Shown in pieces: positions 8,705 to 24,121 of a stretch of 24,857 nt of DNA. The stretch comes from Spirochaetia bacterium (GTDB taxonomy: Bacteria > Spirochaetota > Spirochaetia > PWKH01). The notes beneath the pieces are model-generated. The model was not told the origin of the DNA and searched no databases. It saw only the letters and a program-made list of their open reading frames with translations. Within the stretch, counting starts at the first letter, position 1. Every line of letters starts with the position of its first letter. The stretch covers positions 1-24,857 of the forward strand of contig JAIPFU010000010.1 in the NCBI GenBank assembly GCA_021736505.1, given 5' to 3'. Position numbers and translations under genes: made by a program.

Positions 8705-10749
8705 GATATCCACCCTATCCACTGGGATACGAGTTCTATACAGGAGAAATCCGGAATAAGCAGATCCGCACCGGCTAGAACCAGGCGCTCCCGTTTCGCC
8801 TCATTCCTGCCGAAGCGCTGTCGCTCATCACTCAGCATGCCCACGGCGACCATACCATGCTTACGCGCCTCACGGATTTCCACAGGACCATCTCCAAAAA
8901 CTGCACAACGTTCAGCAGCGGCGTCAGGACGCTCCTCGATTTTTTCCAATATCCCCTTCATAACCATCTGCTTGGGATCCCGGCTTACATCTCCCACTGA
9001 TCCGTAGATTCCCCCGTTAAAATAGTCGGCATATCCCAACAGGGCGGCCTCTTTGCGGACATCTTCCTGGTCTGTGCCGCTGGCAAGATACAGGGTTACT
9101 CCCTTCTCCCGCAGGGTCCTCAGGAAATCGACAGCCCCCTTCATAGTGACATCCTCCAGGGATAGCTGGCCGGACTGAAACCGCTCCGTCTTTTTATGTA
9201 CGTTTTTCATGAGCATTTCATTATAGATGTTTTTGTATTCCGCGGGGGACAGGATTTCGTTTCGAGGTATGAAGCCGCTTTCCTGTATCAGGTCAACTAA
9301 CTCATACATCTGAATAAGCGTCTGTACTCCTGTGGTTTTGCTTATCAGTTGATCAGCCTTAAGTTCAATTTCTTTGAGAAGCTCAGAAGAGAGATTCGAA
9401 TAGGCGCTCCCTGCAATACTCATGACCATCATCCGTTTCATCACCTCTTCCCAGCCTTGACGGAGTGTGGAAATTGTGCCGTCATGATCAAAGACAGCGG
9501 CTGCAGGATATGCATGGTCAAAACTTCCCTCAAGGGAGCTGCGGATCACTTCAATATCTGTTTCTGGAAGGAGTTCTGCCAACCGTTTGTCCCGTGCAAG
9601 TTCCGGATTGTACCGATAGTCCCCCCGTTCATGAATCTCAAGCACTTCATCAATGGTGGGGTGGCCCGTTTCATACAGGGTCTGGACGCTCACGCCTGCT
9701 GTCTCATTTCCGACTTCAGCAGCTTCACCCAGAGAAGCCCCTGCTGCCAGGGCCATGGCCAAACCGGCAATAAAGGCATCCCCCGCTCCCACGGCATCAA
9801 TGGATTTAATAATATGCAGTCCCAGCACGGTGTGCATGGTTTCTCCGTCATAGCTTACAGCTCCATCTTCTCCCCTGGTAATAACGACGGGCTCTCTCCA
9901 ATGGTCATGCAGCCAAAGCAGCAGATCACTGTCATGTATGTTCCTGATTTTCTGTGCCGATGCTTCCTTATCTGTTGCGTTCCCTTCAGCTTTTCCATCC
10001 TGCTGATACTTTCCATCCTGCTGATACTTTCCATCCTGCTGATACTTTCCATCCTGCTGATTTCCATCCTGCTGATGGTTCCCAAGCAGTTGATGATAGG
10101 AGGCGTATAATTCCCGGGCTTCATGATTGTTCAGTTTGTGGATAGTGTGGGTATAGACATCCTGCAGCTTCCTGCTGTCCGTCAGCCACAATTCCCTGTT
10201 TCCGGAAGCTCTCATTACTTCATTAAGACTCTTCTGGAAGTACGGATTATGCAGCCCCTGCAGAACCTGTTCATTTATAATAATGATATCATAGGCATGA
10301 ATATTCCTTTTCAGTTCCAGAATCAAGGAATCTATCGTGTTCGCATCAGGGGTATTGTAATTGCCGATATCATAGCGAGGGAGTTCATTATCCTTATCAT
10401 ATACCTTGTGATATACATGGGTCAGCCAGCCCTCTTCCTGTACAAACATGCCTTTCGTGCGGATCTGCTCCTGCAGCAGCAGCTCACGAACTATCATACC
10501 GAAATAATCACTCCCGATGATACCATAGATATCCACCCTTCCTGCACCAAGCCGTTTGCAGTTAACGGCAACATTGCCAGCGCCTCCGAGTTCATGCTTG
10601 AATGCACTCACCGCATTGGTTTTGAGACCGGTTTCTACTGATACTTCCGTATTGTCATTATGTATAAAATAGTAGGTATCCAGGCAAATGTCGCCAATTA
10701 CGGCAATAACTGCGTTCTTATTATGCGATAGTATCGTTTGTAGATCCAT
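8701..10749 (-). CDS. fused PfkB-family sugar kinase and HAD phosphatase
   Basis: A 682-residue cytosolic two-domain protein. Residues about 8-370 are a PfkB/ribokinase-fold kinase of the HldE N-terminal kind: G-D-I-C-L-D, L-G-G-A-G-N-V-A-V-N (about 50-60), and the catalytic D-A-V-G-A-G-D-A-F with its Asp near 324. Residues about 415-680 are a HAD hydrolase: V-F-D-H-D-G-T with nucleophile Asp near 421, L-A-S-G-T motif II, a Lys in D-P-K-Q-M, and F-G-D-G-P-V-E-I in motif IV. The kinase is interrupted by a Gln/Asp/Gly/Lys/Tyr repeat at about 223-251. The start at 10749 has AGGAG 5 bases upstream; an ATG six codons earlier has none. It is the first gene of the operon. With the GmhA-like isomerase it recalls the GmhA-HldE-GmhB steps on heptose phosphates, but the nucleotidyltransferase domain of HldE is missing. 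The true substrate is unknown. Confidence 0.9.
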   Translation of the reverse strand: MDLQTILSHNKNAVIAVIGDICLDTYYFIHNDNTEVSVETGLKTNAVSAFKHELGGAGNVAVNCKRLGAGRVDIYGIIGSDYFGMIVRELLLQEQIRTKGMFVQEEGWLTHVYHKVYDKDNELPRYDIGNYNTPDANTIDSLILELKRNIHAYDIIIINEQVLQGLHNPYFQKSLNEVMRASGNRELWLTDSRKLQDVYTHTIHKLNNHEARELYASYHQLLGNHQQDGNQQDGKYQQDGKYQQDGKYQQDGKAEGNATDKEASAQKIRNIHDSDLLLWLHDHWREPVVITRGEDGAVSYDGETMHTVLGLHIIKSIDAVGAGDAFIAGLAMALAAGASLGEAAEVGNETAGVSVQTLYETGHPTIDEVLEIHERGDYRYNPELARDKRLAELLPETDIEVIRSSLEGSFDHAYPAAAVFDHDGTISTLRQGWEEVMKRMMVMSIAGSAYSNLSSELLKEIELKADQLISKTTGVQTLIQMYELVDLIQESGFIPRNEILSPAEYKNIYNEMLMKNVHKKTERFQSGQLSLEDVTMKGAVDFLRTLREKGVTLYLASGTDQEDVRKEAALLGYADYFNGGIYGSVGDVSRDPKQMVMKGILEKIEERPDAAAERCAVFGDGPVEIREARKHGMVAVGMLSDERQRFGRNEAKRERLVLAGADLLIPDFSCIELVSQWIGWIS
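9995..10081. repeat. 18-bp coding tandem repeat (Q-Q-D-G-K-Y units)
   Basis: Exact 18-bp units CCATCCTGCTGATACTTT lie at 9995-10012, 10013-10030 and 10031-10048. A 15-bp shortened copy (10049-10063) and a diverged copy follow. On the minus strand they encode Q-Q-D-G-K-Y repeats inserted in the PfkB kinase domain. All length changes so far are multiples of three. The insert falls before the catalytic part and is hydrophilic, so it is probably a surface loop whose length can change by slippage without breaking the frame. Confidence 0.93.
10620..10636. promoter_or_regulatory. operator-like sequence inside the kinase-phosphatase gene
   Basis: TTTTGAGACCGGTT (10620-10633) is identical over 14 bases to the operator at 10845-10863. 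The dyad TGAGACCGGTTTCT (10623-10636) is in fact closer to a perfect palindrome than that site. It lies 226 bp from it, inside the coding sequence, like an auxiliary lac operator used for looping. Coding chance is possible. Confidence 0.45.
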
Positions 10750-10844
10750 GCTGTCTCCTATATGCATTTGGATACAAAAATGATTGATATTACGGGACTG
10801 CTAGTAAAAACCAAACAGCTTGAATGTACCGCTCTATCATGGTA

Positions 10845-11204: not shown

Positions 11205-12194
11205 ATGAAAAAAGTTACCATTAAAGACATAGCCGTGGAAGCAAATGTCTCAAAAGCCACTGTTTCACGAGTCCTTTCCCACCCGGAACAGGTTAATGTA
11301 AAGACCCGCAGAAACATACTGGATATCATGGATAAGCACTCATATATCCCCAATCAGCTAGCCCAGGGCTTAGCAGGGACACTTACCAGAACGGTGGGGG
11401 TCGTTATTGATGAGCTTTCAAACTTTTTCTTTATTGAAATTGCAGAAGGGGTGGATCGAATCCTCAGTTCCAATCAGTACTCCATGCAGCTGTCCAGTTC
11501 CCGCTGGATCCAGGAACGGGAAACAGATATTGTCCGCTCCCTGATCAGCAGCCGTGTAGACGGTGTACTCTTGGCTCCGGTAGCTCCGGAATCGGCATCA
11601 ATCCAGCTGCTGAAAAAATCAGGCACCCCTTTTGTCATCATGAACTGCATCCCGGAAGATCCATCCCTTGCCTATGTTTCCTGCGATAATATTGCCGGAG
11701 GACGCCTGGCGGCTCAGTATGTTAATACACACCCCCGAGAACAGACCATCATGGTAACTGGCTACCACCATCAATCCCTTCAGGACCGGATAAACGGCTT
11801 TTCTCAGGAATACAGCAATGCTGCGGAACTGAAACATTATCCCAATATCCGTACCTTTGAAGACGGATATGAGCTTATTCCCATTCTTCTGAACCGAGAT
11901 AGTATTGACCGAAGAAAAACCACCCTCTTTGTAACTAACGACAATGTGGCCATAGGCATTATTCAAGCTCTCCTGGAACGGGGCATATCAATACCACAGC
12001 AGGTTTCAGTTATCGGCTATGATAATATACGGCTGTCAAATCTCTCCCGAATACCCTTAAGCACCGTTTCACAGTCTATCAGGGATATGGGCCGCATTGC
12101 CGCTCTTGAGCTCATGGAAATGATCAAAGATCCTTCCCGAAAGCCGCCTCAGCATTTAATAAAACCTGAACTGGTGGTCCGCAAATCCAGTTGA
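11205..12194 (+). CDS. LacI/GalR-family transcriptional regulator
   Basis: A 329-residue cytosolic repressor-type regulator. Residues 3-56 form the LacI helix-turn-helix and hinge: T-I-K-D-I-A, A-N-V-S-K-A-T-V-S-R-V-L, and Y-I-P-N-Q-L-A-Q-G-L. The rest is a periplasmic-binding-protein-like effector domain, starting V-G-V-V-I-D-E-L-S-N and including D-G-V-L-L-A-P-V, F-V-T-N-D-N-V-A-I-G and V-I-G-Y-D-N. The length is normal. It is divergent from the kinase-phosphatase-led operon. Two LacI-type operators in the shared intergenic region make it the likely regulator of that operon and of itself. By family knowledge a sugar or sugar phosphate from the pathway would release it. The GH13 gene follows 157 bp downstream and may be under the same control. 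Confidence 0.95.
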   Translation: MKKVTIKDIAVEANVSKATVSRVLSHPEQVNVKTRRNILDIMDKHSYIPNQLAQGLAGTLTRTVGVVIDELSNFFFIEIAEGVDRILSSNQYSMQLSSSRWIQERETDIVRSLISSRVDGVLLAPVAPESASIQLLKKSGTPFVIMNCIPEDPSLAYVSCDNIAGGRLAAQYVNTHPREQTIMVTGYHHQSLQDRINGFSQEYSNAAELKHYPNIRTFEDGYELIPILLNRDSIDRRKTTLFVTNDNVAIGIIQALLERGISIPQQVSVIGYDNIRLSNLSRIPLSTVSQSIRDMGRIAALELMEMIKDPSRKPPQHLIKPELVVRKSS

Positions 12195-12351: not shown

Positions 12352-13824
12352 ATGCACAAGGGGGCGGAATTGTCACAAGCCTGGTACGAAAAAGCAGTAT
12401 TTTACCACATCTATCCCCTCGGTTTCTGCGGGGCTCCTGAAAAGAACGACTTCACCTCGCCTCCTGAACCGCGGCTGAAAAAAATCATCCAGTGGATTCC
12501 TCACATGAAGCACCTGGGCATTACTGCCCTCTATCTCGGCCCGGTCTTTGAGTCTGCTAGCCACGGCTATGATACAAGTGACTACTTCACCGTGGACCGT
12601 AGGCTGGGAACAGCCGAAACGCTGCGCGAAGTCATCAGCAAGCTCCATGAAAATGATATTCGAGTAATCCTGGACGGAGTGTTCAACCATGTGGGCAGAG
12701 ATTTTTTTGCCTTCACCGACCTCCTTCATCAGCAGCAGAACTCTATGTTCCGTGAATGGTTTAAGGACATTGATTTCAGCCGGAAAAGTCCCCTGGGGGA
12801 CCCTTTTTCGTATCAGGGCTGGCAGGGTCATATGGAGCTGGTTAAGTTGAACGGTGCTTACAGCTATGTGCAGGAGCATCTTTTCTCGGCCATACGCATG
12901 TGGAAGGAGACCTTTGAGATTGACGGGCTGCGTCTGGACGCTGCGGATGAACTGCACGATGAGTTCATACTGAACCTATCCCACTTTGCAAAGGAGTTGA
13001 AAGAGGATTTCTGGCTCATGGGTGAGCTTATCCACGGCGATTACACAAAACTGCTGGGACCGGATAAACTGGATTCCCTAACCAATTATGAATGCTGGAA
13101 GGGACTCTACTCCAGTCATAACGATGGGAATTATTTTGAAATTGCTCATTCTCTGAAACGTCTGTTCAATCCTAGCGATGGGCTCTGCAGGGATGTGCAG
13201 CTCTACAACTTTGCTGATAATCACGATGTGAACCGCGTCGCTTCGCTGCTGCATGATCAGCGACACCTATACCCTCTCCACCTCCTGCTTTTTACCATGC
13301 CCGGAATTCCGTCCATCTATTACGGGAGTGAATGGGGTATACAGGGAAGGCGAAGCAGCACCAGCGATGCCCCGCTGCGCCCTGAACTGGAACTCCCGGA
13401 ACTTGAAAAAGTCCCAGAAAATGGAGAGGTGCGGGATTTGTATCCGCACCGAGACCTTGCAGAAGCAGTCAGCATATTCTCACAGCTCAGGGAGCAGCTT
13501 CCGGCTCTGCAGATCGGTAAATATAAGCAAGTGTATGTTGCCTCTCAGCAGTTCGCTTTCCTGCGCTTCCTTGAACAAGGGGGAAATGCTGTTCTCATAG
13601 CTGTTAATGCAGAAGAGAAGCCGGCGGAAATCACCTTGGACGTATTTGCCATTTCCGAAATCTGTTCTGCTGAACAGTCTAATTCTGGAACACAGCTGGA
13701 AAGTATTTCCTTAAGGGATCTTCTCAATCCTGAATTTTCCCCTGCCCAATACAATCTGAAAGAGAATACCGTATCACTGATAATCCCCGGAAATTGGGGA
13801 TGCATGTTTGAAATTACTTGTTAA
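12352..13824 (+). CDS. GH13 alpha-amylase-family enzyme, cytoplasmic
   Basis: A 490-residue (beta/alpha)8 glycoside hydrolase or transglycosylase of family GH13 without signal peptide, so it acts on imported alpha-glucans or alpha-glucosides. All four signature regions are visible: D-G-V-F-N-H-V-G, G-L-R-L-D-A-A-D-E-L with nucleophile Asp196, G-E-L-I-H-G with acid/base Glu225, and F-A-D-N-H-D with Asp292 (numbered from the ATG). M-P-G-I-P-S-I-Y-Y-G-S-E-W-G follows. The C-terminal beta domain is short and ordinary. The best guess is a neopullulanase, cyclomaltodextrinase or alpha-glucosidase type; I cannot choose. The ATG at 12352 has AGGG directly against it with no spacing. A TTG at 12370 has AAGGGGGCGG upstream at a usable distance, so translation may begin there. 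It lies downstream of the lacI-type gene, on the same strand. Confidence 0.92.
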   Translation: MHKGAELSQAWYEKAVFYHIYPLGFCGAPEKNDFTSPPEPRLKKIIQWIPHMKHLGITALYLGPVFESASHGYDTSDYFTVDRRLGTAETLREVISKLHENDIRVILDGVFNHVGRDFFAFTDLLHQQQNSMFREWFKDIDFSRKSPLGDPFSYQGWQGHMELVKLNGAYSYVQEHLFSAIRMWKETFEIDGLRLDAADELHDEFILNLSHFAKELKEDFWLMGELIHGDYTKLLGPDKLDSLTNYECWKGLYSSHNDGNYFEIAHSLKRLFNPSDGLCRDVQLYNFADNHDVNRVASLLHDQRHLYPLHLLLFTMPGIPSIYYGSEWGIQGRRSSTSDAPLRPELELPELEKVPENGEVRDLYPHRDLAEAVSIFSQLREQLPALQIGKYKQVYVASQQFAFLRFLEQGGNAVLIAVNAEEKPAEITLDVFAISEICSAEQSNSGTQLESISLRDLLNPEFSPAQYNLKENTVSLIIPGNWGCMFEITC

Positions 13825-13989: not shown

Positions 13990-15717
13990 ATGGGTAAAAA
14001 AAATGATATCGGCAAAATGAGGATATTCTGGATCAAGGATCAGAAATCCCTCCCTCCCCGACCAGAGAATCCTGAAAGGTATCCTGAGCATGATATCCGT
14101 CACTGGTATGATCAGGAATATGCTGCTTTCTACACGCATAAAAAAAATATCCCTCAACAGCGATTTGACGACACACCGCGGGGCAAGAAGGTTATCTGCA
14201 TCTACCCGGGAAATCATCCCTACATGGACGACCTCAGGGAAGGGGCCAAAAAAGTCGCCGATATGTACGGTATTGAAACGCAGTTTTATACCACCAGCTG
14301 GGATAAACGTCTTCAGACAAAGAAAGTGGAAGACGCGATACAGAAAAGACCGGACCTGATTATCATGGTACCGGAAAATACAAATTCCTGCGAAGATCAC
14401 TATAAAAGAATCAACGAAGAGAACATACCCATTATCTGCAGTAATTCGCTGCCTGAACCCGCCGTATATCAGCATATTCTAGCCTGGACCGGTCCAGATG
14501 ACTGGGGTCAGTACCGCCTGCTCGCCCGCGAATTTGCTGAATTGATGAACTACTCCGGAAATTATGTCATTGTGCGGCACATGCCGGGAAGCTCATCATA
14601 TAACGCCCGAACCTGGGGTTTTGTGTCGGAATTAAACATCATTGCCCCGGATATCAAGCTGCTAGAAGCTGAGACATCATACCTTGATCCTCTCTTTACG
14701 GAAAAACTTGTCGGCACCTGGCTGGATAAATTCGGAGATTCAATACATGGTATTGTTAGTTCAGGGGGAAGCCCACTGCAGATGGCAATTAATAATGTCC
14801 TCATGGATTATAAGCGTGAAGATATGATACGGGTATCCGTAGGAAGCTGTGAAAAAATATTTGATATCATCCAGCAGGGGGGAGTGCATGCCGTAGCTTA
14901 CCAGACCGGAGATATGGACGGCGCTCTAGCTATGCAGACCGCTGTTGACTGGTTCAGCGGTTTTAAGATTGAACCCGTAAGATTCCTGCCCCGTTTTATT
15001 GTGACAAGGAAAAATGTCCAGGATTTTATTGAAAAAAAAGATGCCGTCCCGGTGCTGAATGACGAACTCCTGCAGAAATCCATCGAAAAAATGGATATTA
15101 AAGGGGTGGACATCTTTTTTCAGGATTTGTTTGCCTCTTTGAGCAATGTGAAATTCATCAAAGAGGAATTTGTCCGAGGCTATATCATTCAGCTTTTTTC
15201 TGTGCTGATTCAGAATTTAAAGAACAGCGGCGTGGAACTGCATGAATTTTTTGATGATTATGAAGGAATCTACAAGCATCTCTTTGATCATCAATCCATT
15301 GAGCAGTCATTTCTCTGGATACAGTCCACCGCTAAGGAGATAATTCGGCTCATGCAGAAAAAATTCTCCCAACTGAACACAGTCTTAAAAGTAATTGATT
15401 ATGTGGATAATCATTACACATCTCCCATCTCCTTAAAGACAATAGCGGATAGCTTTGACGTCTCTCCCGCCTATCTCGGTCAGCAGTTCAAAAAGGAGAA
15501 GGGAGTCAGTTTCAGTAATTATGTTAACTCCATCAGGATAGAAAAAGCATCGGACCTGCTGAAAAATACGAATCTTTCAGCAAAGGACATTGCTCTGTCC
15601 GTAGGCTTTTCTGACCACAACTATTTTTACAGGATTTATAAAAAATATACCGGCACATCCCCTACTGAATTCAGGGAGAATCTTTATCTGCAGAGAGCAG
15701 AAAATTCTCCCGATTGA
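13990..15717 (+). CDS. AraC-family regulator with a binding-protein-derived sensor domain
   Basis: A 575-residue cytosolic transcription factor. Residues about 65-345 are a ribose-type periplasmic binding domain without signal peptide. Residues 468-568 are an AraC/XylS double helix-turn-helix (I-S-L-K-T-I-A-D-S-F-D-V-S, then D-I-A-L-S-V-G-F-S-D-H-N-Y-F and Y-T-G-T-S-P-T-E-F-R). A helical linker joins them. The sensor is clearly homologous to the binding protein encoded at 17488-18672. Shared stretches include T-G-P-D-D-W-G-Q (167-174), I-V-R-H-M-P-G-S-S, and, before the domain, an H-W-[YW]-D-x-E-Y-A element. It probably senses the same ligand and activates the importer and UroD-like genes. 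No Shine-Dalgarno site precedes the ATG and the promoter is almost on top of it, so the mRNA may be leaderless; an internal ATG at codon 10 has no better site. Confidence 0.93.
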   Translation: MGKKNDIGKMRIFWIKDQKSLPPRPENPERYPEHDIRHWYDQEYAAFYTHKKNIPQQRFDDTPRGKKVICIYPGNHPYMDDLREGAKKVADMYGIETQFYTTSWDKRLQTKKVEDAIQKRPDLIIMVPENTNSCEDHYKRINEENIPIICSNSLPEPAVYQHILAWTGPDDWGQYRLLAREFAELMNYSGNYVIVRHMPGSSSYNARTWGFVSELNIIAPDIKLLEAETSYLDPLFTEKLVGTWLDKFGDSIHGIVSSGGSPLQMAINNVLMDYKREDMIRVSVGSCEKIFDIIQQGGVHAVAYQTGDMDGALAMQTAVDWFSGFKIEPVRFLPRFIVTRKNVQDFIEKKDAVPVLNDELLQKSIEKMDIKGVDIFFQDLFASLSNVKFIKEEFVRGYIIQLFSVLIQNLKNSGVELHEFFDDYEGIYKHLFDHQSIEQSFLWIQSTAKEIIRLMQKKFSQLNTVLKVIDYVDNHYTSPISLKTIADSFDVSPAYLGQQFKKEKGVSFSNYVNSIRIEKASDLLKNTNLSAKDIALSVGFSDHNYFYRIYKKYTGTSPTEFRENLYLQRAENSPD

Positions 15718-15737
15718 TCAGCGATCTGAGGATCAAT
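15713..15737. terminator. inverted repeat shared by two convergent stop codons
   Basis: ATTGATC (15713-15719) pairs with GATCAAT (15731-15737) around 11 nt. The two arms contain the stop codons of the AraC-type gene and of the convergent UroD-like gene, which are only 15 bp apart. It may serve as a bidirectional terminator, but the stem is AT-rich and no long T-run follows on either side. Confidence 0.4.
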
Positions 15738-16902
15738 GTATTTCAGGTATATCATAGGATCCCAAATTCAGGGGATACTTCCCGTAGCTTCTAATCAAAT
15801 TCAGTACATATTCATAGCGCTCCGCTGATACATTGGAGGGAACAGAATGATCTGACTGCATGATATAACCGCCACCTTTAGCAGCATTCATTTTGGTCAG
15901 AACCTCAGTTTTCAAATCTTCCAAATCTGCAGTCCCCCAATGAAGGGCATCAATATTACCGCAGAATGCAATATCATGACCAAACTTCTTCCGTTTATCG
16001 ATGACATCCATCCCGGATTTCGACTCCAGGGGATTATACACATCCAGTCCCATTTCAATCATATCAGGGAAAATATCCGTTGCATTCCCGCAGCCGTGAT
16101 AAATAACCGGCAGATTCTGTGAATGACAGTAATCAATTACTCCTTTCACACAGGGTTTGAAGAACTTACGCCACATCTTCGGAGAGAAGAGCATTCCATT
16201 AACGTAGGCGACATCACCCCAGATAACCATACCATCAAGCAGGCCGTCTGCAGCTGCAATCTGCGCTTTGCAGAGTTCAATATTGAACTCCGTAACCCTG
16301 TCAAGAAATATCTTCATTTCATCCGGGTAGAGTGCCAGCCACATAAGCATGTTTTCACTACCGATGACTCTCCAGCCGAATTCGTGACTTTCACAAACTG
16401 AGCCGTATACAGGCATTTCCGGGTGGAGGGCCTTTATCCCGTCTATCCAGGGCGGAGTATTTCGGTGAATTCGGTCCCCGACTCCGGCAATCTGGTTGTC
16501 ACCGCCGGAAAAGAAGCGACGGTCATCCCAGGGATCATCAAATGTGAATGCCAGGGCTTTCTCAATGGTATTCGTTTCAAAATGCTGGAAATAGGGCATC
16601 TCCGCCCCATCCTTATGGCGAATCACAGCTTCAAAACCGGTTTTTAAGATAACATCTTCCTCGGTCTCCTTTATCACTTCAAAGGATTTGATGTGCGGAT
16701 CCATATTGGGCATGGTGCAGATCCAGTCCAAGTCGTAGTACTGATAGGGTGAGGCATCCTTGGGCAGGCCCAGCTCCTCCTGCCAGCGGGCTATGAAGGA
16801 GGACCAGAAAAAGTCGCTTACAGGCACCTGATCTCCTTCTTTATGATTAATAGCATTATTCATGCGGTTCAGCTTTTTTCTGCAGTTCCTGCTCCGTTCC
16901 AT
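15733..16902 (-). CDS. UroD-superfamily protein (corrinoid methyltransferase MtaA-like)
   Basis: A 389-residue cytosolic TIM-barrel protein of the uroporphyrinogen decarboxylase/methyltransferase superfamily. It lacks obvious UroD haem-pathway hallmarks. It has an H-G-C-G-N element (His269, Cys271), the H-x-C pair that binds zinc in MtaA-type methylcobamide:thiol methyltransferases, and F-C-G-N-I-D-A further on. D-G-M-V-I-W-G-D-V-A-Y-V-N-G-M-L-F-S-P-K-M-W is typical of the superfamily. The start has GGAG 8 bases upstream. It is the last gene of the importer group, 138 bp after the RhaM-like gene. By superfamily knowledge it could move a methyl group to or from a corrinoid protein, but many sugar-locus UroD-like proteins have no proven function. 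Position suggests a role in breakdown of the imported compound. Confidence 0.87.
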   Translation of the reverse strand: MERSRNCRKKLNRMNNAINHKEGDQVPVSDFFWSSFIARWQEELGLPKDASPYQYYDLDWICTMPNMDPHIKSFEVIKETEEDVILKTGFEAVIRHKDGAEMPYFQHFETNTIEKALAFTFDDPWDDRRFFSGGDNQIAGVGDRIHRNTPPWIDGIKALHPEMPVYGSVCESHEFGWRVIGSENMLMWLALYPDEMKIFLDRVTEFNIELCKAQIAAADGLLDGMVIWGDVAYVNGMLFSPKMWRKFFKPCVKGVIDYCHSQNLPVIYHGCGNATDIFPDMIEMGLDVYNPLESKSGMDVIDKRKKFGHDIAFCGNIDALHWGTADLEDLKTEVLTKMNAAKGGGYIMQSDHSVPSNVSAERYEYVLNLIRSYGKYPLNLGSYDIPEIH

Positions 16903-16991
16903 TACTCACTCTCCAAATTCATCTTTTTTGAATATGATTATTTCTGATCTAAACAAGCTTGGATCATTCAAATCAAATTTCCGGTGTTTTC

Positions 16992-17051
16992 TAATCGAAC
17001 TTAATCGAATTTAATCGAATTTAATCGGGCTTAATCGAATTTAATCGAGGT
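16992..17051. repeat. 10-bp tandem repeat, six copies
   Basis: Six head-to-tail units of the form TAATCGAATT run from 16992 to 17051, with variants AACT, GGCT and AGGT in the last bases. The right-most unit overlaps the last codons and stop of the RhaM-like gene. On the minus-strand transcript the array fills part of the gap before the UroD-like gene. The 10-bp period puts every copy on the same face of the helix, but duplication by slippage from the gene's 3' end is the simplest origin. Confidence 0.93.
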
Positions 17052-17364
17052 GATACACCTCTTTCATTTCCGCCCACCACTCGCCCTCTTTCCTCGTTTC
17101 CAAGGGACGCTGCATGGGTTTCATGATAGCCCACCACTCCTGAGTCTTAGGGTCATCCGCCATTTTCTGCATATCCGCATCAAAATCGTCTCCGACATAC
17201 TCAAAATAGGAAAAGAGATAATCATCCTTCAGATATATGGAATAATTTGTGATATTGCACTCTCTAATTTTTTGATTTATCTCAGGCCATGGATTTGCAT
17301 GGTACTGCATATATGAGTTTATAGAGTCAGGATCCACTTTAATAACTTGACCGAATCGTTTCAT
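17041..17364 (-). CDS. L-rhamnose mutarotase-like protein (RhaM family)
   Basis: A 107-residue dimeric alpha/beta-barrel-type protein of the RhaM family, which interconverts alpha and beta anomers of L-rhamnose or related sugars in the cytosol. Visible features are G-Q-V-I-K-V-D-P, Y-H-A-N-P-W-P-E-I with the likely catalytic His, the Y-S-I-Y-L-K-D-D-Y-L-F-S-Y-F-E-Y strands, and the C-terminal E-W-W-A-I-M-K-P-M-Q. The length equals the family norm when starting at 17364 (M-K-R-F-G-Q). An ATG three codons earlier (17373) has AAGG directly against it and is less likely. It sits between the binding-protein gene and the UroD-like gene. Rhamnose itself is not proven; family members near other importers are thought to act on other deoxy- or modified sugars. 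Confidence 0.88.
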   Translation of the reverse strand: MKRFGQVIKVDPDSINSYMQYHANPWPEINQKIRECNITNYSIYLKDDYLFSYFEYVGDDFDADMQKMADDPKTQEWWAIMKPMQRPLETRKEGEWWAEMKEVYHLD

Positions 17365-17407
17365 TTCTTTCATCCTTCTTTACATGGTTTTTCGCAAGCA
17401 TAGCAGC

Positions 17408-17431
17408 AGGAAGACGCACATGCGCCTTCCT
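17408..17431 (-). other. intercistronic hairpin after the second binding-protein gene
   Basis: AGGAAG-A-CGCA pairs with TGCG-C-CTTCCT: an approximately 11-bp stem with one G-U pair in the minus transcript and a 4-nt or smaller loop. It lies between the binding-protein stop (17488) and the RhaM-like start. No T-run follows, so an mRNA-stabilising role is likelier than termination. A 14-bp near-repeat (17447-17460, 17461-17474) adjoins it. Confidence 0.6.
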
Positions 17432-17487
17432 AGCTGATAATTACTGGTCTATCAAACCTGATCTATCAATCCTGATGAACAGCATTC

Positions 17488-18672
17488 TTACCACTGAGCG
17501 GGCATAAAATCGTCTACATCGGACTGGGTAATGATATGCTTGGGCAGATAATTTACTGGAGGAATGTCCTCACCATTAAACCATTCAACGGCGGTGTAGA
17601 GTGCAATCGCACCATCACCTTCAGCAGACTGATAGGTAATTGCTTCAGCGTCCCCTGCTTTAACAGAATCCATTCCTGTTTTACTGTTACCAGCAGCGGC
17701 AATAACAATATCTTCTCGACCTGCATTCTCAATTGCTTCCAGGGTTCCTGTCATGGAGAAACCGTCTCCAGCTAAGATCAAACCATTGAGCTCATCACCA
17801 TATTTAGTTATCCATGCGGATACAAGCTGCATCGTTCCTTCTGCTTCAAGATTTGCTGTATCCATATCAAGAAGCTCCATATCCGGTGCATATTCTTTCA
17901 GCTCAGTAATAGGAGCATAGGTTCTGGCGAAAAAGGGAGAAGAACCTGGCATATGTCTTACAATTGCATAACCGCCTTCCTTGCCTAATCTATCTGCAAA
18001 TCTTCTTGCAAGCAGTCTGAACTGACCCCAGTCATCGGGTCCTGTCCAAGCCAGGCAGTACTTCATAGCTTCATCCACCGGAATGGTGTTGGAAGTGATT
18101 ACAGGGATATCCGCCTGGTTTATCTTTCTCAGAAGCGGTGTACATGCCGTAGCATCAACAGGAGCAAAGATAATCATATCCGGACGTTCATTAATAGCCT
18201 GGCTGGTCTGCTGAGACTGCAGATCCTGGTTCCAGTTTGAATTAAAAATCTTGACTTCCATATCATAAGCTTCAGCAATAGCCTTGAAGCCGTTTACATA
18301 GGCAGTCCAGTATGGGTGATCTCCCGCTTTCATGAGAACTACTTTCTTACCAATAGCCCCATCTCCAGGAGATTTCGGCTGCGATACTTTTTCAGTTGTC
18401 CATCCGGCGTATTCGATATCCCACCAATGACCGGCATCATCTTCAGGCAGTGCTGAAGGATCGCTGGGACGCTCAGGTACATCCTTGGGTTCTCCGGGCA
18501 GAATCAGCGGCTGACCGTCTGAACCCATCAACGAGAACACATCTACTTCCAGTGATTTTTCCAGATTGCCTTCTCCCGCAGCTGCTTCTTCCTGATCCCC
18601 TGCAGCAAATACCAGAGCTGCCGTCAAAGCGAACATACAAGCTAAGAGTATAGCTTTTCTCATTTTCATCAT
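17488..18672 (-). CDS. ribose-type ABC importer solute-binding protein
   Basis: A 394-residue secreted binding protein of the Peripla_BP_4 (RbsB-like) group. The signal peptide is M-R-K-A-I-L-L, a hydrophobic core and V-F-A-A-G, followed by acidic D-Q-E-E; no lipobox Cys. A stretch of about 80 residues precedes the binding domain and contains H-W-W-D-I-E-Y-A. The domain begins at G-K-K-V-V-L-M-K-A-G-D-H-P-Y-W and includes T-G-P-D-D-W-G-Q (about 210) and I-V-R-H-M-P-G-S-S. These elements recur in the sensor of the AraC-type regulator next door. AGGAGG precedes the two adjacent ATGs (18672, 18669); spacing favours the second. A 231-bp gap separates it from the upstream permease, so it may have its own promoter. 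The ligand is unknown, probably a modified monosaccharide given the RhaM-like gene. Confidence 0.94.
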   Translation of the reverse strand: MMKMRKAILLACMFALTAALVFAAGDQEEAAAGEGNLEKSLEVDVFSLMGSDGQPLILPGEPKDVPERPSDPSALPEDDAGHWWDIEYAGWTTEKVSQPKSPGDGAIGKKVVLMKAGDHPYWTAYVNGFKAIAEAYDMEVKIFNSNWNQDLQSQQTSQAINERPDMIIFAPVDATACTPLLRKINQADIPVITSNTIPVDEAMKYCLAWTGPDDWGQFRLLARRFADRLGKEGGYAIVRHMPGSSPFFARTYAPITELKEYAPDMELLDMDTANLEAEGTMQLVSAWITKYGDELNGLILAGDGFSMTGTLEAIENAGREDIVIAAAGNSKTGMDSVKAGDAEAITYQSAEGDGAIALYTAVEWFNGEDIPPVNYLPKHIITQSDVDDFMPAQW

Positions 18673-18690
18673 AGTTCCTCCTGTTTTTTA

Positions 18691-18705
18691 CTCTATAATA
18701 TAGAG
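18691..18705. promoter_or_regulatory. 15-bp palindrome before the binding-protein gene
   Basis: CTCTATAATATAGAG is a perfect dyad with 7-bp arms, 18 bp upstream of the binding-protein start. It could be an operator or a weak 5' hairpin, and it contains -10-like TATA sequences. I do not find a matching -35 box. Confidence 0.4.
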
Positions 18706-18803
18706 CATTTTTTCAAATTTTCTTTTATACGTATTCCCTCTTTTGTGAAGGAAGGTATCCCTTGTGTTTTTTCAGTGAAACCTCTTTTTTCCTGTATACG
18801 GTG

Positions 18804-18837
18804 TCACAAAACTTTGTGATGGGCTCTTGAACAGCCC
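18804..18837. promoter_or_regulatory. two adjacent inverted repeats in the permease/binding-protein gap
   Basis: TCACAAA-AC-TTTGTGA (18804-18819) is a perfect 7-bp-arm dyad. GGGCT (18821-18825) pairs with AGCCC (18833-18837) next to it. They lie in the 231-bp gap between the last permease gene and the binding-protein gene. They could be an operator plus a partial terminator. The dyad is not a CRP site, whose half-sites are in the opposite order. Confidence 0.45.
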
Positions 18838-18903
18838 GAAGACGCCGTTTTCAGTCTTTCTACATAGTCAAAATTGCTCTACCACTAAACTTTATGCCAG
18901 CAT

Positions 18904-19941
18904 TCAAGCTTTACTCTTCTCCAATTCCTGGAGAAGATTCGGCCGCTGCCCCTTGAGAAGATTCTTCTTATAAACCGTATAGGCCTCATACAGGACAACG
19001 AGCGCTAGGATAATCCCATTAACAAACATCTGGACTTCAAAACCCAGGCCGAAACAGCCAATTCCATTATTGACGCTTATCAGAACAAGTACCCCGAAAA
19101 AGGATTTTACAATATCACCCTTTCCTCCTGTTATAAGAGTTCCACCGATAATGACAGCAGCGATGACCTGCAGCAGGGTCTTATTCCCGAGGATGGCATA
19201 GGAGGTTACGGAAGCGAGCTTCATTGCAAACAAGGCACCACCCACCGCTGCGAGACCATCACAAATAATAAATCCAATGATGATATACCTGTCCCTGTTC
19301 AAGCCCGCCAGCCATGCTGTCTCAGAGTTGCCTCCCACTACAAAAAAACCTTTGCCAAAACGTGTTCTTGTCATCATAAGTGCAAACAAAAGCACTATCG
19401 CTATGGTTATCAAAGAAAGGGGAGTAAAAATCCACAAGATCTCACGTTCCAGCATATCTGCCACGCGAAAATCATTGACAGCCTTTGATCCGCCGTCACT
19501 GTAGAGGTGCATAAGTCCAAAGGTAATGATCTGTGTCCCCAAGGTGACGATGAAAGAGTTTATTTTAGCCTTTGAAACGAGCAGTCCGTTAACTAATCCA
19601 ACCATTACTCCTGAGCCTGCGGCGGCAAGAAAACTCCCGGTCCATCCTAGGGACGGTTGAAGTCCTATACACAGCATCCCGGATAACATCAGAACTGCAC
19701 CGATGGATAAGTCCAGTTGTCCCAGAATAAAAATAATGGTAAAGCCCACGGCGCAAATTGCGGAAAGGCTCGCTCCTGTCAGGATTGTGCGAAAATTATA
19801 TATTGAGAAAAAATTCGGGGCAAATACAGAGAGGCCGAGGAATAGAAAGACAAGCATGGCCAGAGCTCTGTGTTCATTTAATGTATGCCCCAGATTTTTC
19901 CTTGCGGCGGAACTGGATATTGGTTTTTCACTATTAGGCAT
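18904..19941 (-). CDS. ribose-type ABC importer permease (RbsC-like), second
   Basis: A 345-residue inner-membrane permease of the CUT2 family with 8-10 hydrophobic segments, the first starting near residue 28. Family landmarks are G-A-S-L-S-A-I-C-A-V-G-F-T, Q-L-D-L-S-I-G-A-V (the D-L-S-x-G signature), G-L-V-N-G-L-L-V-S-K, I-N-S-F-I-V-T-L-G-T, and I-I-G-G-T-L-I-T-G-G-K-G. It has GGGGA 6 bases before the start, which overlaps the stop of the other permease by 8 bp. The two permeases are different proteins, so a heterodimeric channel is likely. Confidence 0.94.
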   Translation of the reverse strand: MPNSEKPISSSAARKNLGHTLNEHRALAMLVFLFLGLSVFAPNFFSIYNFRTILTGASLSAICAVGFTIIFILGQLDLSIGAVLMLSGMLCIGLQPSLGWTGSFLAAAGSGVMVGLVNGLLVSKAKINSFIVTLGTQIITFGLMHLYSDGGSKAVNDFRVADMLEREILWIFTPLSLITIAIVLLFALMMTRTRFGKGFFVVGGNSETAWLAGLNRDRYIIIGFIICDGLAAVGGALFAMKLASVTSYAILGNKTLLQVIAAVIIGGTLITGGKGDIVKSFFGVLVLISVNNGIGCFGLGFEVQMFVNGIILALVVLYEAYTVYKKNLLKGQRPNLLQELEKSKA

Positions 19942-20965
19942 AATCTTTCCCCTGTTTTCTCAGCTGATACTGATGGATTCCCACCACCAGGATAAAAATA
20001 GTTCCTGTGACAATATTCTGCTGAAAGGTGTTCACTCCCATAAATGTCAGGATATTCGTCATCAAACCAATCACCAGAACACCTCCAAAGACTCCGAACA
20101 TGGATCCCTTTCCACCGCTCTGCATCATGCCGCCCAGGACAACCGCGGTTACCGCTTTAAAGTCATAGCCCTGTCCAAGGTAGAAGACTCCCAGTTTATT
20201 CATACTGGTTATAAAAATACCGCCGATGGATGCGCATAAAGCAGTTACAATGAAATTCAGCAGGATCACTTTTGTCACATTCACACCCGTGCTTCTTGCT
20301 ACATCCCGTGAGGAACCAACAAGTTTAGTCTGCAGCCCGAACTTTGTCCGTGTAAAAACAAACTGCAGAATAAGGAACATGGCAATCATAACAACAACAA
20401 TCAGGGGAACAGGCCCGATATCCGTTCTGAATATGGCAATAAAATGTTCCGCGATGGCTGAATCTTTGCCGCTGGTTTCAAGTACCTGATCAGGATACAG
20501 CTGGCTGTTACTCCAGGCAAAGCGCATGAAGCCTTCCATAAAATAGGCCACAGCCAGTGTCCAGAGGATCGGATTTGCATCAAGCTTCCCAATAACAAGC
20601 CCATTCAGCGCCCCGATCAGCATCCCGGCTAAAAGTCCGAGAATTATGGCAGGGACCAGGCCCCAGGGCAGCATCGCCACGGTAATAATTCCGGAAAAAG
20701 CCATATACGACGGAATAGCCAGGTCAGCAAGGTTACCATTGTATACGACAAAAGCCATACCGCAGGAAGCTATTCCCAGAAGGGCTACCGCCCTCAGAAT
20801 ATTCATAAAATTTGAACCGGTAAGAAAATTCGGCGATACAAATACCCCGATAATCAGCAGAATACCTGCTATGACATAAATTCCGGCTTTCTCATAAACT
20901 CGTCCCAGCATATTCTGCCGATTTCTGTTGAACCGATCAGAATTTACTTCACTTTTCCCCGGCAT
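19934..20965 (-). CDS. ribose-type ABC importer permease (RbsC-like), first
   Basis: An inner-membrane CUT2 permease of about 343 residues. It shows L-G-I-A-S-C-G-M-A-F, N-L-A-D-L-A-I-P-S in place of the usual D-L-S-x-G signature, G-A-L-N-G-L-V-I-G-K-L-D-A-N-P-I-L-W-T-L, and V-V-L-G-G-M-M-Q-S-G-G-K-G. I place the start at 20965, which has GGAG 8 bases upstream and follows the ATPase stop by 16 bp. ATGs at 21004 and 21013 would overlap the ATPase gene by 23-32 bp; 21004 also has a possible GGGG site, so the start is not settled. The altered signature may mean an unusual substrate or simply an asymmetric partner. Confidence 0.92.
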   Translation of the reverse strand: MPGKSEVNSDRFNRNRQNMLGRVYEKAGIYVIAGILLIIGVFVSPNFLTGSNFMNILRAVALLGIASCGMAFVVYNGNLADLAIPSYMAFSGIITVAMLPWGLVPAIILGLLAGMLIGALNGLVIGKLDANPILWTLAVAYFMEGFMRFAWSNSQLYPDQVLETSGKDSAIAEHFIAIFRTDIGPVPLIVVVMIAMFLILQFVFTRTKFGLQTKLVGSSRDVARSTGVNVTKVILLNFIVTALCASIGGIFITSMNKLGVFYLGQGYDFKAVTAVVLGGMMQSGGKGSMFGVFGGVLVIGLMTNILTFMGVNTFQQNIVTGTIFILVVGIHQYQLRKQGKDYA

Positions 20966-20981
20966 CCCAGTTTCTCCGTTT

Positions 20982-22511
20982 TTAGTATTGTGTATAGCAG
21001 ACATCGCAAACATCCCCTTCGCCGTTAGCCGCTAAAAGCGCGGTCTCTTCAGTCAGCTGCTCTTTATACATCTCTCCGATTAAATGTCCATGGCGCATGA
21101 CAATAACTCTGTCTGCCAAACCTACAAGCTCCGGCAGATCACTGCTCATCAGCACTATGGTCATTCCTTTATCGGCCAACTCAAGCACGACATCATGGAT
21201 GGTCGCCTTTGCTCCGACATCCACCCCTCTAGTCGGTTCATCCAGGATAAGTACTTTCGGATCCATGGCCAGACATTTTCCAAGAAGTATCTTCTGCTGG
21301 TTCCCTCCGGAGAAACTATTCACCTCCTGCTTCACATCAGGGGGCACTACATTCAGTTTTTCCACCAGATACTGTATTAGTGAATTGGTTGATGATTTTG
21401 AAAAGATCCCGAACTTGCAGTGCTCATCGATGACCGATGAGTATAAATTCTCACCCGCCGGAAGTCGGAGAAATAATCCGTCATTCTTCCTATCCTCGGT
21501 AAGATATGCCAGTCCATTCTTTATAGTCCTGGGGTATGAACCTGGTTTTAAATTTTTACCATGGATTCTGACTATGCCCTCATCCAGGGGATCTATCCCG
21601 CAAATGGAACGGCCAAGTTCCGTCCGACCAGCACCGGCAAGACCAACAATCCCCAGAATCTCACCTTTTTTAGCCTGAAAACTGATATCGTGAAAGAAGC
21701 CGTATCTTACCGCATGGTCAACTTCAAGCATCACTTCTTCTTCGGCAGCTCCTTTACGTTTAGCATAAAACTCATCGATAGACTCCCCAACCATCATATG
21801 GACAAGATCCGCCGTAGTAACATCATCTACAGGTTTTGTATCTACCCTTTTTCCATCCCGCATGACAGTTACCCTGTCGGCTACCCTGAATACTTCAGGA
21901 AGATGGTGAGAGATATAGATGATTGCCATCCCGCTCTCTTTCAACCTTTCTATCAGCTGAAAAAGCAGTTCAACTTCATCTCTTGAGAGAGCTGAGGTAG
22001 GTTCATCCATCACCAGAATCTTGGGATCATTGCTCATGACCTTGGCAATTTCCACAAGCTGGGCTTCATGCTGGGATATTTCTGATATTGGTACGCGCGG
22101 ATCAAGATGTTCTAGCCCAACCTTTGAAAGGATTGTACGTGTCTGATCAATCATGGCGTTCCTGTCTAAAAACAGCCTCTTTTTTACCGGCAGTCGTCCA
22201 ACAAGCACATTCTCTGCAATGCTGATTGGTCTAGCTAAACTCAACTCCTGATATACCATCCCAATTCCTTTTTTTATGGAATCACCGGGACTATGCAGAT
22301 TGACCGGTTCTCCAGAAATTTTTATCTCACCGGTATAGTCATTGAAAGAGCCTGCCAGCATTTTCATTAGTGTGCTTTTTCCTGCCCCGTTTTCACCGCA
22401 GAGGGCATGCACTTCCCCGGGATAGACAGTAAAATCGACATTATCTACTGCCAGGGTCGCAACAAAGGCTTTTCTCACCTGTATCATTTCCAAAACTGGA
22501 ACTTTCTCCAT
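20982..22511 (-). CDS. ribose-type ABC importer ATPase with two ATP-binding domains (RbsA-like)
   Basis: A 509-residue cytosolic ATPase that powers the two permeases. Domain 1 has Walker A G-E-N-G-A-G-K-S-T (about 39-47), a degenerate signature I-S-E-I-S-Q-H-E-A-Q, and Walker B I-L-V-M-D-E-P-T-S-A-L. Domain 2 has a weak Walker A at G-L-A-G-A-G-R-T-E-L, the strong signature F-S-G-G-N-Q-Q-K, and L-I-L-D-E-P-T-R-G-V-D-V-G. This asymmetry is normal for CUT2 ATPases. A short tail ends C-D-V-C-Y-T-Q-Y, slightly unusual in its Cys content. AAGGAG lies 9 bases before the ATG, and a good promoter lies at 22566-22594. It is the first gene of its group, so the order is ATPase, permease, permease, binding protein, mutarotase, UroD-like. 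Confidence 0.95.
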   Translation of the reverse strand: MEKVPVLEMIQVRKAFVATLAVDNVDFTVYPGEVHALCGENGAGKSTLMKMLAGSFNDYTGEIKISGEPVNLHSPGDSIKKGIGMVYQELSLARPISIAENVLVGRLPVKKRLFLDRNAMIDQTRTILSKVGLEHLDPRVPISEISQHEAQLVEIAKVMSNDPKILVMDEPTSALSRDEVELLFQLIERLKESGMAIIYISHHLPEVFRVADRVTVMRDGKRVDTKPVDDVTTADLVHMMVGESIDEFYAKRKGAAEEEVMLEVDHAVRYGFFHDISFQAKKGEILGIVGLAGAGRTELGRSICGIDPLDEGIVRIHGKNLKPGSYPRTIKNGLAYLTEDRKNDGLFLRLPAGENLYSSVIDEHCKFGIFSKSSTNSLIQYLVEKLNVVPPDVKQEVNSFSGGNQQKILLGKCLAMDPKVLILDEPTRGVDVGAKATIHDVVLELADKGMTIVLMSSDLPELVGLADRVIVMRHGHLIGEMYKEQLTEETALLAANGEGDVCDVCYTQY

Positions 22512-22833
22512 ATATTCTGTTTCTCCTTCAAAAGCTTAATTCATTTGAATGTTTGCTGTTTCTCTAGATTAAGATGCTTCATAGCATTCTGCAACGTGAA
22601 AAATTTTACATAAAACAGCAATAATTTAATATATGATTTTTCAAGTCACCTTCCGGCAAGACAAAAATTTCATAATCTTCATAAAATTTTTACAGACAAC
22701 TCATTAATTTTTCTACTTTCTCTCCCCCGCCGCTGCTTCTATACTTACATGAAAACATGAGAGCTACACCACCGACGAGCAAAAGTCTGCAGTTAGGCAG
22801 CATTAATCGTAAAATTGGCAGTGAGGAGGATAT
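22512..22833. other. divergent control region between importer and UroD-like genes
   Basis: A 322-bp AT-rich stretch without a gene, between the importer ATPase (minus) and the UroD-like gene (plus). It carries the minus promoter at 22566-22594. For the plus gene a TATACT at about 22741 is a possible -10 box without a clear -35 box, as expected for an activator-dependent promoter. The AraC-type regulator would be expected to bind here, but I cannot point to a convincing repeated half-site. Confidence 0.55.
22566..22594 (-). promoter_or_regulatory. promoter of the ribose-type importer operon
   Basis: The minus strand reads TTGCAG (plus 22589-22594), a 17-bp spacer and TAATCT (plus 22566-22571), about 50 bp before the ATPase start. 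The spacer holds a small dyad, ATGCT-ATGA-AGCAT. Confidence 0.6.
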
Positions 22834-23943
22834 ATGAATAGAGTAGACAGCAAAAAGTCAGCAGACAACAGCATCGAAAAAAAAACAGCCCCTGGGGATG
22901 CAAAAAAACGGGTAATGACAACATTTCAGCATAAAGAACCTGATATGGTTCCCCGCTGGTGCGGTTCAAGCCCTGAATTCTGGGATAAAGCAAAAAAATA
23001 TACTGGAATCAGTGATGATGAGGCTCTGTCTCAACGCTTCGGAGATGACTTTAGAAGAGTATACTCTGCATACCGCGGCCCGGAGCATGAACTCCATAAC
23101 GGCGCTACCTGGTGCAGCCCCTTCGGTGTGGAGAGAACCGGCATTGGCTACGGGCAGCCGACATCCCATCCTCTAGCCCAGGCTGCTTCAATCAAAGATA
23201 TAGAATCCTATAACTGGCCATCACCGGACTGGATAGATATATCCGGTATACATGAGCAAGCAGCGCCCTTTAAAAACGATTATGCAATCCTGGGGGGAGA
23301 ATGGTCTCCATTCTGGCATGACGCAATTGATTTAATTGGTCATGAAAACCTCTACTATTTCATGTTTGACAATCCTGCAGCGGCAGAAGCCCTTTTTGAG
23401 CATATTACCGACTTCTACTATGAAGGTACTCGCAGGACCTTTGAAGCAACTGGGGATGATATTGATATCTTTTTCATAGGAAATGACCTAGGCGGGCAAA
23501 CTGGTCCGCTCATAGGGGTGGAGTGGTTCAAACAGTTTGTACTGCCCTCCTTGAAGCGCTTAATCAATCTGGGACACCAGTACAATAAATATGTCATGAT
23601 GCACTGCTGCGGGGGATTCAGACAGCTGATTCCTTCACTCATTGATGCCGGTCTGGATGGGCTGCATGCCCTGCAGCCGGACTGTGAAGGGATGGATCCC
23701 GCCGGGCTGAAAAGGGATTTCGGCAAGGATATCGTTCTGAACGGCTCCATAGATTCCCATAAAACCCTTATTTCCGGCCCTTCTCCAGAGTATGTGGAAG
23801 AGGAGACAAAGCGCATTCTGGATATTATGAAACCCGGCGGGAGGTACATCTGTGCAGCAAGTCATGACTATATCCTGGAAGAGACCCCAGTGGAAAACGT
23901 ATTGGCAATGTTTGATGCTGTGGAAAAATACGGCCGTTACTAA
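22834..23943 (+). CDS. UroD-superfamily protein (corrinoid methyltransferase MtaA-like)
   Basis: A 369-residue cytosolic TIM-barrel protein of the UroD/MtaA superfamily. After a charged N-terminal tail of about 25 residues come K-K-R-V-M-T-T-F-Q-H-K-E-P-D-M-V-P-R, the usual family opening, and W-S-P-F-W-H-D-A. It has M-M-H-C-C-G-G (His257, Cys259) as the candidate zinc H-x-C pair, and N-G-S-I-D in place of the C-G-N-I-D of the gene at 15733. A further Cys is in Y-I-C-A-A-S-H near the C-terminus. GAGGAGG lies 4-5 bases before the ATG. It is divergent from the importer operon and upstream of another superfamily member. It differs clearly from the protein at 15733, so the two are separate subfamilies. 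Enzymatic role is unproven. Confidence 0.87.
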   Translation: MNRVDSKKSADNSIEKKTAPGDAKKRVMTTFQHKEPDMVPRWCGSSPEFWDKAKKYTGISDDEALSQRFGDDFRRVYSAYRGPEHELHNGATWCSPFGVERTGIGYGQPTSHPLAQAASIKDIESYNWPSPDWIDISGIHEQAAPFKNDYAILGGEWSPFWHDAIDLIGHENLYYFMFDNPAAAEALFEHITDFYYEGTRRTFEATGDDIDIFFIGNDLGGQTGPLIGVEWFKQFVLPSLKRLINLGHQYNKYVMMHCCGGFRQLIPSLIDAGLDGLHALQPDCEGMDPAGLKRDFGKDIVLNGSIDSHKTLISGPSPEYVEEETKRILDIMKPGGRYICAASHDYILEETPVENVLAMFDAVEKYGRY

Positions 23944-23983
23944 GGGCTTATCATTTTTTCAAACTTTTTTATGGATATTACAG

Positions 23984-24055
23984 CAGAATGTTTCGGATGT
24001 TCAGAATATTTCAAAAGTTCAGAATGTTTCAGATGTTCAGAATTTTTCGGTTATT
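23984..24055. repeat. 18-bp imperfect tandem repeat, four copies
   Basis: Four units starting CAGAAT[GA]TTTC lie at 23984-24001, 24002-24019, 24020-24037 and 24038-24055, with the first and third nearly identical. They fill the gap between the two rightward UroD-like genes, just after a T-rich stretch at 23952-23970. The third positions and lengths would allow in-frame reading, but no start or homology supports a protein here. Confidence 0.88.
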
Positions 24056-24121
24056 CATCGCCGACATCTGTATTTCTTATTTGAGTAAAATACTAAAACG
24101 ACGTATGCAACGGAGGCAGAA

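Follow-up and report, generated by a model that had tools for sequence, protein, structure and literature searches.

In Escherichia coli, the regulator XylR (PDB 4fe4 and 4fe7) consists of an N-terminal binding-protein-like sensor and a C-terminal AraC domain, and it stands beside the CUT2 importer XylFGH. For the LacI/GalR repressors, passages in two papers (PMC555942, PMC3877293) give the view that a binding protein once gained a DNA-binding domain, in a single ancient event. Here, we describe an AraC-type regulator with the same plan as XylR from a contig of 24,857 nucleotides of a Spirochaetia bacterium (JAIPFU010000010.1, assembly GCA_021736505.1; the whole contig is called the window). 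This regulator (P0001) neighbours the secreted binding protein of a CUT2 importer (P0002), and an earlier reading of the window from its letters alone (the sequence-only reading) had proposed that its sensor is a locally duplicated copy of that protein. Judged by sequence relationships, the regulator is the product of a single old fusion, whose sensor was captured once from this binding-protein family, then diversified, and was not copied from the present neighbour. The capture took place in an ancestor of these regulators, which apparently belong to spirochaetes. We consider it quite likely that P0001 is such an old capture, with a cytoplasmic CUT2-type sensor beside an importer of the same family, and that it works as proposed below.

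The regulator and its neighbour

The two genes and their parts are as follows.

13990..15717, plus strand: AraC-type regulator P0001, 575 aa, no signal peptide, Peripla_BP_4 at residues 70-320 and HTH_18 at 485-563
14044..14157, plus strand: N-terminal extension of the regulator, residues 19-56, with HWYDQEYA at 38-45 (alignment and motif), common to the sensor family
14197..14949, plus strand: CUT2-type binding-protein sensor domain, residues 70-320
15043..15381, plus strand: helical linker, residues 352-464 (helices in the AlphaFold 2 model)
15442..15678, plus strand: AraC helix-turn-helix domain (HTH_18), residues 485-563 (Pfam)
17488..18672, minus strand: secreted sugar-binding protein P0002 of the CUT2 importer, 394 aa
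18373..18486, minus strand: N-terminal extension of the binding protein, residues 63-100, with HWWDIEYA at 82-89 (alignment, model and motif)

The AraC domain of the regulator (PF12833, 79 bits, residues 485-563; PF00165, 65.7 bits) assigns it to the AraC/XylS family, and the binding-protein-like sensor joined to this domain gives it the XylR-type architecture. No LacI helix-turn-helix was detected in P0001 by Pfam (one is present in the window gene at 11205-12194), so P0001 is not a LacI/GalR member. Pfam placed Peripla_BP_4 at residues 70-320 of P0001 and 111-368 of P0002; PF13407 scored above its cut-off, and the comparison of the models revealed an RbsB-type fold in both sensors, as in CUT2 binding proteins. 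A hydrophobic segment was found at residues 7-25 of P0002 and none in P0001, and as the regulator has no signal peptide, its sensor would lie in the cytoplasm. Both AlphaFold 2 models are confident (mean predicted local distance difference test, pLDDT, 92.5 for P0001 and 94.4 for P0002). The extension is ordered in both of them, the block at residues 21-60 of P0001 reaching pLDDT 87-97. The linker and helix-turn-helix of P0001 together (residues 352-575) aligned with two receiver-domain response regulators (P0230 and P0231; 33-36% over 188-210 residues), whose output half they resemble. The exchange of a receiver domain for a sugar sensor in the ancestry of P0001 is only a suggestion, because the linker alone gave no significant match to those response regulators.

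The sequence-only reading had located both genes correctly, though it gave no strand for the binding protein (minus), and the likeness it described is real: BLASTP of the pair gave 285 bits (E 1e-95 for the pair comparison), with 130 of 329 positions identical (40%) and one gap. The aligned stretch covers residues 19-347 of the regulator and 63-390 of the binding protein, and it begins, as had been claimed, upstream of the Pfam domain, which starts at residues 70 and 111, respectively. Likewise, the three stretches quoted in that reading occur in both proteins: TGPDDWGQ at residue 167 of the regulator and 210 of the binding protein, IVRHMPGSS at 194 and 237, and HW[YW]DxEYA at 38 and 82.

The relatives used were the best 120 of 174 matches of the regulator search and the best 120 of at least 676 of the binding-protein search, which together with the two window proteins made 229. 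Two of them, P0169 and the AraC fusion P0060, were left out of the trees for their short domains. The 227 listed domains comprise 70 AraC fusions (3 of them truncated), 122 binding proteins, 21 permease fusions and 14 chemoreceptor fusions (P0072 to P0115), where the binding-protein class holds everything that precomputed Pfam did not mark as one of the three fusions, including some members of odd length. P0068, P0071 and P0087 were relabelled as AraC fusions after reading, as they run beyond the sensor and end early; BLAST supports the linker in P0071 and P0068 but not in P0087, which was assigned by eye and from the word 'partial' in its source.

The shared stretches had been called uncommon, which does not hold for this family. 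Of the AraC fusions, 47 of 70 contain TGPDDWGQ, as do 90 of the 122 binding proteins, 9 of the 14 chemoreceptor fusions and 18 of the 21 permease fusions, and W[YWF]DxE[YFH] is found in 65, 112, 10 and 19 of them, respectively; only the exact IVRHMPGSS is restricted (3/70, 40/122, 0/14 and 13/21). The idea that the shared extension goes back to a single local event was therefore rejected, since W[YWF]DxE[YFH] occurs in most members of all four architectures. The upstream element is a family-wide feature and for that reason no evidence for duplication. More generally, a strong likeness of adjacent genes, even outside the domain, can mark a family and not a duplication.

With the query counted, BLAST scores against the sensor put the neighbour in 75th place of 229, and scores against the binding protein put the regulator in 202nd place of 229. 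In aligned identity to the sensor, the neighbour came 54th among the 122 listed binding proteins (38.6%; best 43.5%), and in identity to the neighbour, the regulator sensor came 61st among the 70 listed AraC sensors. Among the matches listed, the nearest relatives of the P0001 sensor are other AraC fusions (97%, 66% and 59-60%).

One group of AraC-fused sensors

The FastTree analysis of 227 rows placed all 70 AraC sensors (67 and the 3 truncated ones) in one group with nothing else inside. Three smaller sets were also used. The 62-row set consisted of P0001, the six nearest AraC rows, every third further AraC row and hand-picked members of the other groups; P0070, P0069, P0055, P0017, P0040, P0038, P0041, P0063 and P0060 were omitted as long-branched or short, together with the three truncated sequences. 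The 40-row set was a subset of it without P0043, and for the rooted 42-row set P0058 and P0032 were dropped and four outside binding proteins served as the root. The unrooted IQ-TREE tree of 40 rows separated the chemoreceptor fusions (100/99), the binding proteins (95/93) and the AraC fusions (93/68).

The sequence-only reading had looked for its support in the regulator and its neighbour being sister branches, which they are not. Forcing the two, each with its near-copy, into one clade cost 262 log-likelihood units in the 40-row set (approximately unbiased, AU, test, p-AU 1.0e-6) and 266 units in the rooted set (p-AU 9e-56). The sensor groups with other AraC-fused sensors, with the neighbour at the 75th place given above, and this is the outcome that the same reading had named as speaking against it. 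Its claim of capture and fusion stood in part: the sensor does belong to this binding-protein family, lacks a signal peptide and is joined to an AraC helix-turn-helix, and the local duplication of this particular gene had to be given up. The topology of the trees and the rejected sisterhood argue for one old capture from the family and not for a local copy.

In the rooted tree, the AraC clade received 98/90 and the chemoreceptor fusions were its sister (82/76), both lying among the binding proteins. Neither the tree with AraC fusions outside nor the one with chemoreceptor fusions outside was rejected (p 0.14 each), and the sister relation of the two groups is accordingly weak.

The organism is named for 7 of the 70 listed AraC fusions, and all seven are spirochaetes (P0017, P0020, P0036, P0048, P0059, P0064 and the truncated P0087). 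A relative of P0002 with 98% identity, among the matches listed, also carries a Spirochaetales name. P0002 was matched in 12 of 68 genomes of the phylum Hydrogenedentota (E 1e-40), and the search of the same 68 genomes with P0001 (E 1e-30) matched the same 12, only along the binding-protein stretch. One of 149 Planctomycetota genomes gave a match to P0002 at E 1e-40, namely the one used as the centre. In viral contigs, 20 pattern matches to the regulator were obtained, none of which was confirmed, and there was no match to the binding protein; among plasmids, no record of an AraC fusion reached 80% coverage.

The chemoreceptor fusions carry the same sensor. It is C-terminal to the signalling domain in P0072 and P0074, the two that were scanned with Pfam, and the HW[WYF]DxE element could be placed in 9 of the 14 fusions, at residues 264-489. 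Membrane segments were predicted in 11 of them, all within the first 73 residues, and none in P0074, P0093 and P0101. With a C-terminal sensor and membrane segments confined to the first 73 residues, the chemoreceptor sensor would lie inside the cell, and by hydropathy it is apparently cytoplasmic. Hydropathy and the weak sister branch together allow the tentative idea, which we regard as rather unlikely as it stands, that in spirochaetes one binding-protein family gave rise to a cytoplasmic branch with AraC and chemoreceptor outputs. The substrate of the cassette would then be read by one fold for uptake outside the cell and for gene control and swimming inside it.

The importer cassette and its ligand

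Most likely, the regulator turns on the cassette of which the importer is a part once it has bound the imported sugar in the cytoplasm, and we infer its target operons, their activation and its ligand as follows. The importer would bring in the sugar, at best guess a 6-deoxyhexose-like one, and the cytoplasmic sensor would close on it or on its first product. The helical linker, about 110 residues long, would relay this closure to the AraC domain, and the AraC domain would activate the divergent operons importer/rhaM/uroA and uroB/uroC. The genes of the cassette (15733-24856) are listed below.

15733..16902, minus strand: UroD-like protein A (UroA; PF01208, 90 bits), MtaA/CmuA-like, far below the NCBIfam cut-offs
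17041..17373, minus strand: RhaM-like L-rhamnose mutarotase, 110 aa (PF05336, 114.9 bits), between the binding protein and UroA
18904..19941, minus strand: importer permease B (PF02653)
19934..21013, minus strand: importer permease A (PF02653)
20982..22511, minus strand: importer ATPase with two ABC domains (PF00005, two stretches)
22834..23943, plus strand: UroD-like protein B (UroB; PF01208), divergent from the importer operon, 54% identical to the cassette gene of locus L001
24122..24856, plus strand: cassette protein C, called 'UroC' for its company only, truncated where the window ends, 69% identical to L001 over 245 aa

The importer operon (ATPase, permease A, permease B and binding protein) is followed by the genes of the RhaM-like mutarotase and UroA, and genes B and C are divergent from it. 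The scores of UroA and UroB fall well short of the cut-offs set for the named methyltransferase families (NCBIfam). At E 0.001, neither Pfam nor NCBIfam assigns cassette protein C to a family, although it is 57-69% identical to cassette genes of other phyla. Between rhaM and uroA there are five overlapping copies, with 10-base spacing, of a TAATCGAATT-type repeat (16992-17058) and a small terminator-like hairpin (17047-17061).

The cassette was also found elsewhere. The Planctomycetota contig L001, from a metagenome-assembled genome, carries UroA, UroC, UroB, RhaM, the ATPase, both permeases and the binding protein, and the cassette is also present in Hydrogenedentota (L018-L020 and L024). A contig scan gave one Planctomycetota and two Hydrogenedentota/Hydrogenedentes loci. 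L001-L016 represent 13 distinct loci, as L004, L006 and L015 repeat L001, L002 and L003, and 12 of these 13 contain at least one Uro gene; L003/L015 does not, and its contig stops shortly after the binding protein. No AraC fusion was found in these cassette stretches of other genomes. In L001 (6771-9065), as well as in L017, L018, L020 and L023, permease B and the binding protein read as one open frame, as in the 21 permease fusions among the listed relatives. A cassette of an importer and UroD-like genes recurs across phyla; the RhaM-like mutarotase suggests a 6-deoxyhexose or a close relative as the imported sugar.

Elsewhere in the window, the gene at 8701-10767 encodes a fusion of a PfkB/HldE-like kinase and a HAD-like phosphatase, and midway along the protein a QQDG-type amino-acid motif repeats in tandem. 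The same stretch has a GmhA-like isomerase and an epimerase-like gene, together with a second sugar importer and a ROK-like kinase, both of these judged by eye.

The ligand pocket was mapped at 11 positions using RbsB contacts that we presume to be correct, with the pocket arginine taken as RbsB R139 (opposite R207 of P0001 and R250 of P0002); R141 falls opposite W209/Y252. P0001 and P0002 agree at 8 of the 11 positions, a value that is not specific to the pair, as 44 of the 122 listed binding proteins reach the same agreement with P0001, which no other exceeds, and 7 of 70 AraC sensors share 8 positions with P0002. The presumed RbsB pocket residues D89, R90, F214 and D215 are not kept in the alignment. 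Pairs of an AraC fusion and a binding protein in other organisms were deduced from longest contigs of the same size: P0014/P0215 (13,021 bases), P0007/P0220 (151,311 bases) and P0031/P0151 (5.46 Mb). The P0031 sensor agrees with its own deduced partner at 6 of 11 positions and with others at 6-7.

Several results weigh against the proposed old capture and its working. The AraC clade of the unrooted 40-row tree reached only 93/68, and the 62-row quick tree has one AraC group with a support of only 50. A single clade of all 20 binding proteins was not rejected in the rooted set (p 0.26), so the capture from within the family hinges on the root. RhaM is present in only 4 of the 13 distinct other loci (L001 and, in longer stretches, L019, L020 and L024), which makes the guess at the sugar a weak one; some of the loci in which it was not found are short, and L018 is not (19.9 kb, with UroB and UroC). 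No operator for the regulator was recognised, and promoter-like matches were at chance level (19 found, 19.7 expected); the operator search by repeats gave AT-rich partial repeats at 22500-22850. Moreover, P0001 has G260 where an aspartate (D303 of P0002) is invariant in 68 aligned binding proteins. The pairing in other organisms rests solely on contigs of the same size, and the P0007 and P0014 sensors match their own deduced partners at 5 of 11 positions and P0002 at 8.

The same ligand for the regulator and the importer is plausible, and the pocket neither proves nor excludes it, because deduced pairs agree no more than cross-pairs, G260 replaces the aspartate and the value of 8 of 11 is not specific. 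The alternative that regulator and importer are partners with different ligands, the sensor reading, for instance, a related sugar or downstream metabolite, is unlikely but deserves attention. The pocket differences M79/W122, E156/V199 and V284/A327, the nearby G260/D303 and the poor agreement of the deduced pairs speak for it. Against this, the AraC, chemoreceptor and binding-protein groups have 42 positions in common that are conserved to 90% or more; R250 and Q348 of P0002, which map to the RbsB pocket, are among these.

That the two genes are chance neighbours, with the regulator controlling different genes (for example the upstream alpha-amylase-like gene) and lying beside the importer by accident, appears improbable. 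The regulator is indeed convergent with uroA and not divergent from the importer, and 165 bases separate it from the end of the preceding gene, which has the same orientation (12352-13824); however, a sensor adjoins a binding protein of its own family here, and such a pair elsewhere shares the 13-kb contig size. Local duplication of the neighbour gene, with loss of the signal peptide and fusion to an AraC domain, is scarcely credible: the adjacent genes, the 40% identity with one gap and the extension included, and the 8 common pocket positions, reached against P0002 by only 7 of 70 AraC sensors, would fit it, but the AU tests, the ranks of 54/122 and 61/70, the single AraC group and the family-wide extension rule it out as a recent or lineage-specific event, and its rescue would need heavy gene conversion wiping out the signal.

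Comparison with known systems

The old capture proposed for P0001 shares its plan with XylR, whose sensor, which we take to be LacI/GalR-like, has no counterpart in sequence here. P0001 matches 4fe4 and 4fe7 only in the helix-turn-helix (464-563), and residues 1-350 of P0001 gave no BLASTP match to residues 1-280 of XylR at E 10. XylR does not appear among the 50 structure rows shown for the fold comparison of P0001, which carries no weight either way. The sequence-only reading had called the match to the cognate importer unusually close, and this was borne out: XylR and XylF gave no significant match (17.7 bits over 35 residues, E 0.43), whereas the sensor and the importer protein described here are 40% identical, including the extension.

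Among CUT2 binding proteins of the RbsB type, most of the structure rows shown cover a range that does not include the ordered N-terminal extension. A CUT2-like fold is likewise used as a sensor in the hybrid two-component system BT1754 (2x7x), which has a fructose-binding sensor. There, the sensor lies in the periplasm and serves a two-component system; the P0001 sensor lacks a signal peptide and is linked directly to the DNA-binding half. Among the open-licence papers listed, nothing was found on the AraC fusion or the cassette. The proteins described here provide a defined sensor/importer set for measuring whether the ligand specificities of a regulator and a transporter evolve together.

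The ancient capture behind LacI/GalR repressors reportedly goes back, as an idea, to Fukami-Kobayashi 2003. Compared with those repressors, such as RbsR, which is 27% identical to RbsB, the DNA-binding part is here of AraC type and at the C terminus, and the sensor falls within one binding-protein family. P0001 seems to be a further, independent case of binding-protein capture, with an AraC output and a much closer kinship to the importer.

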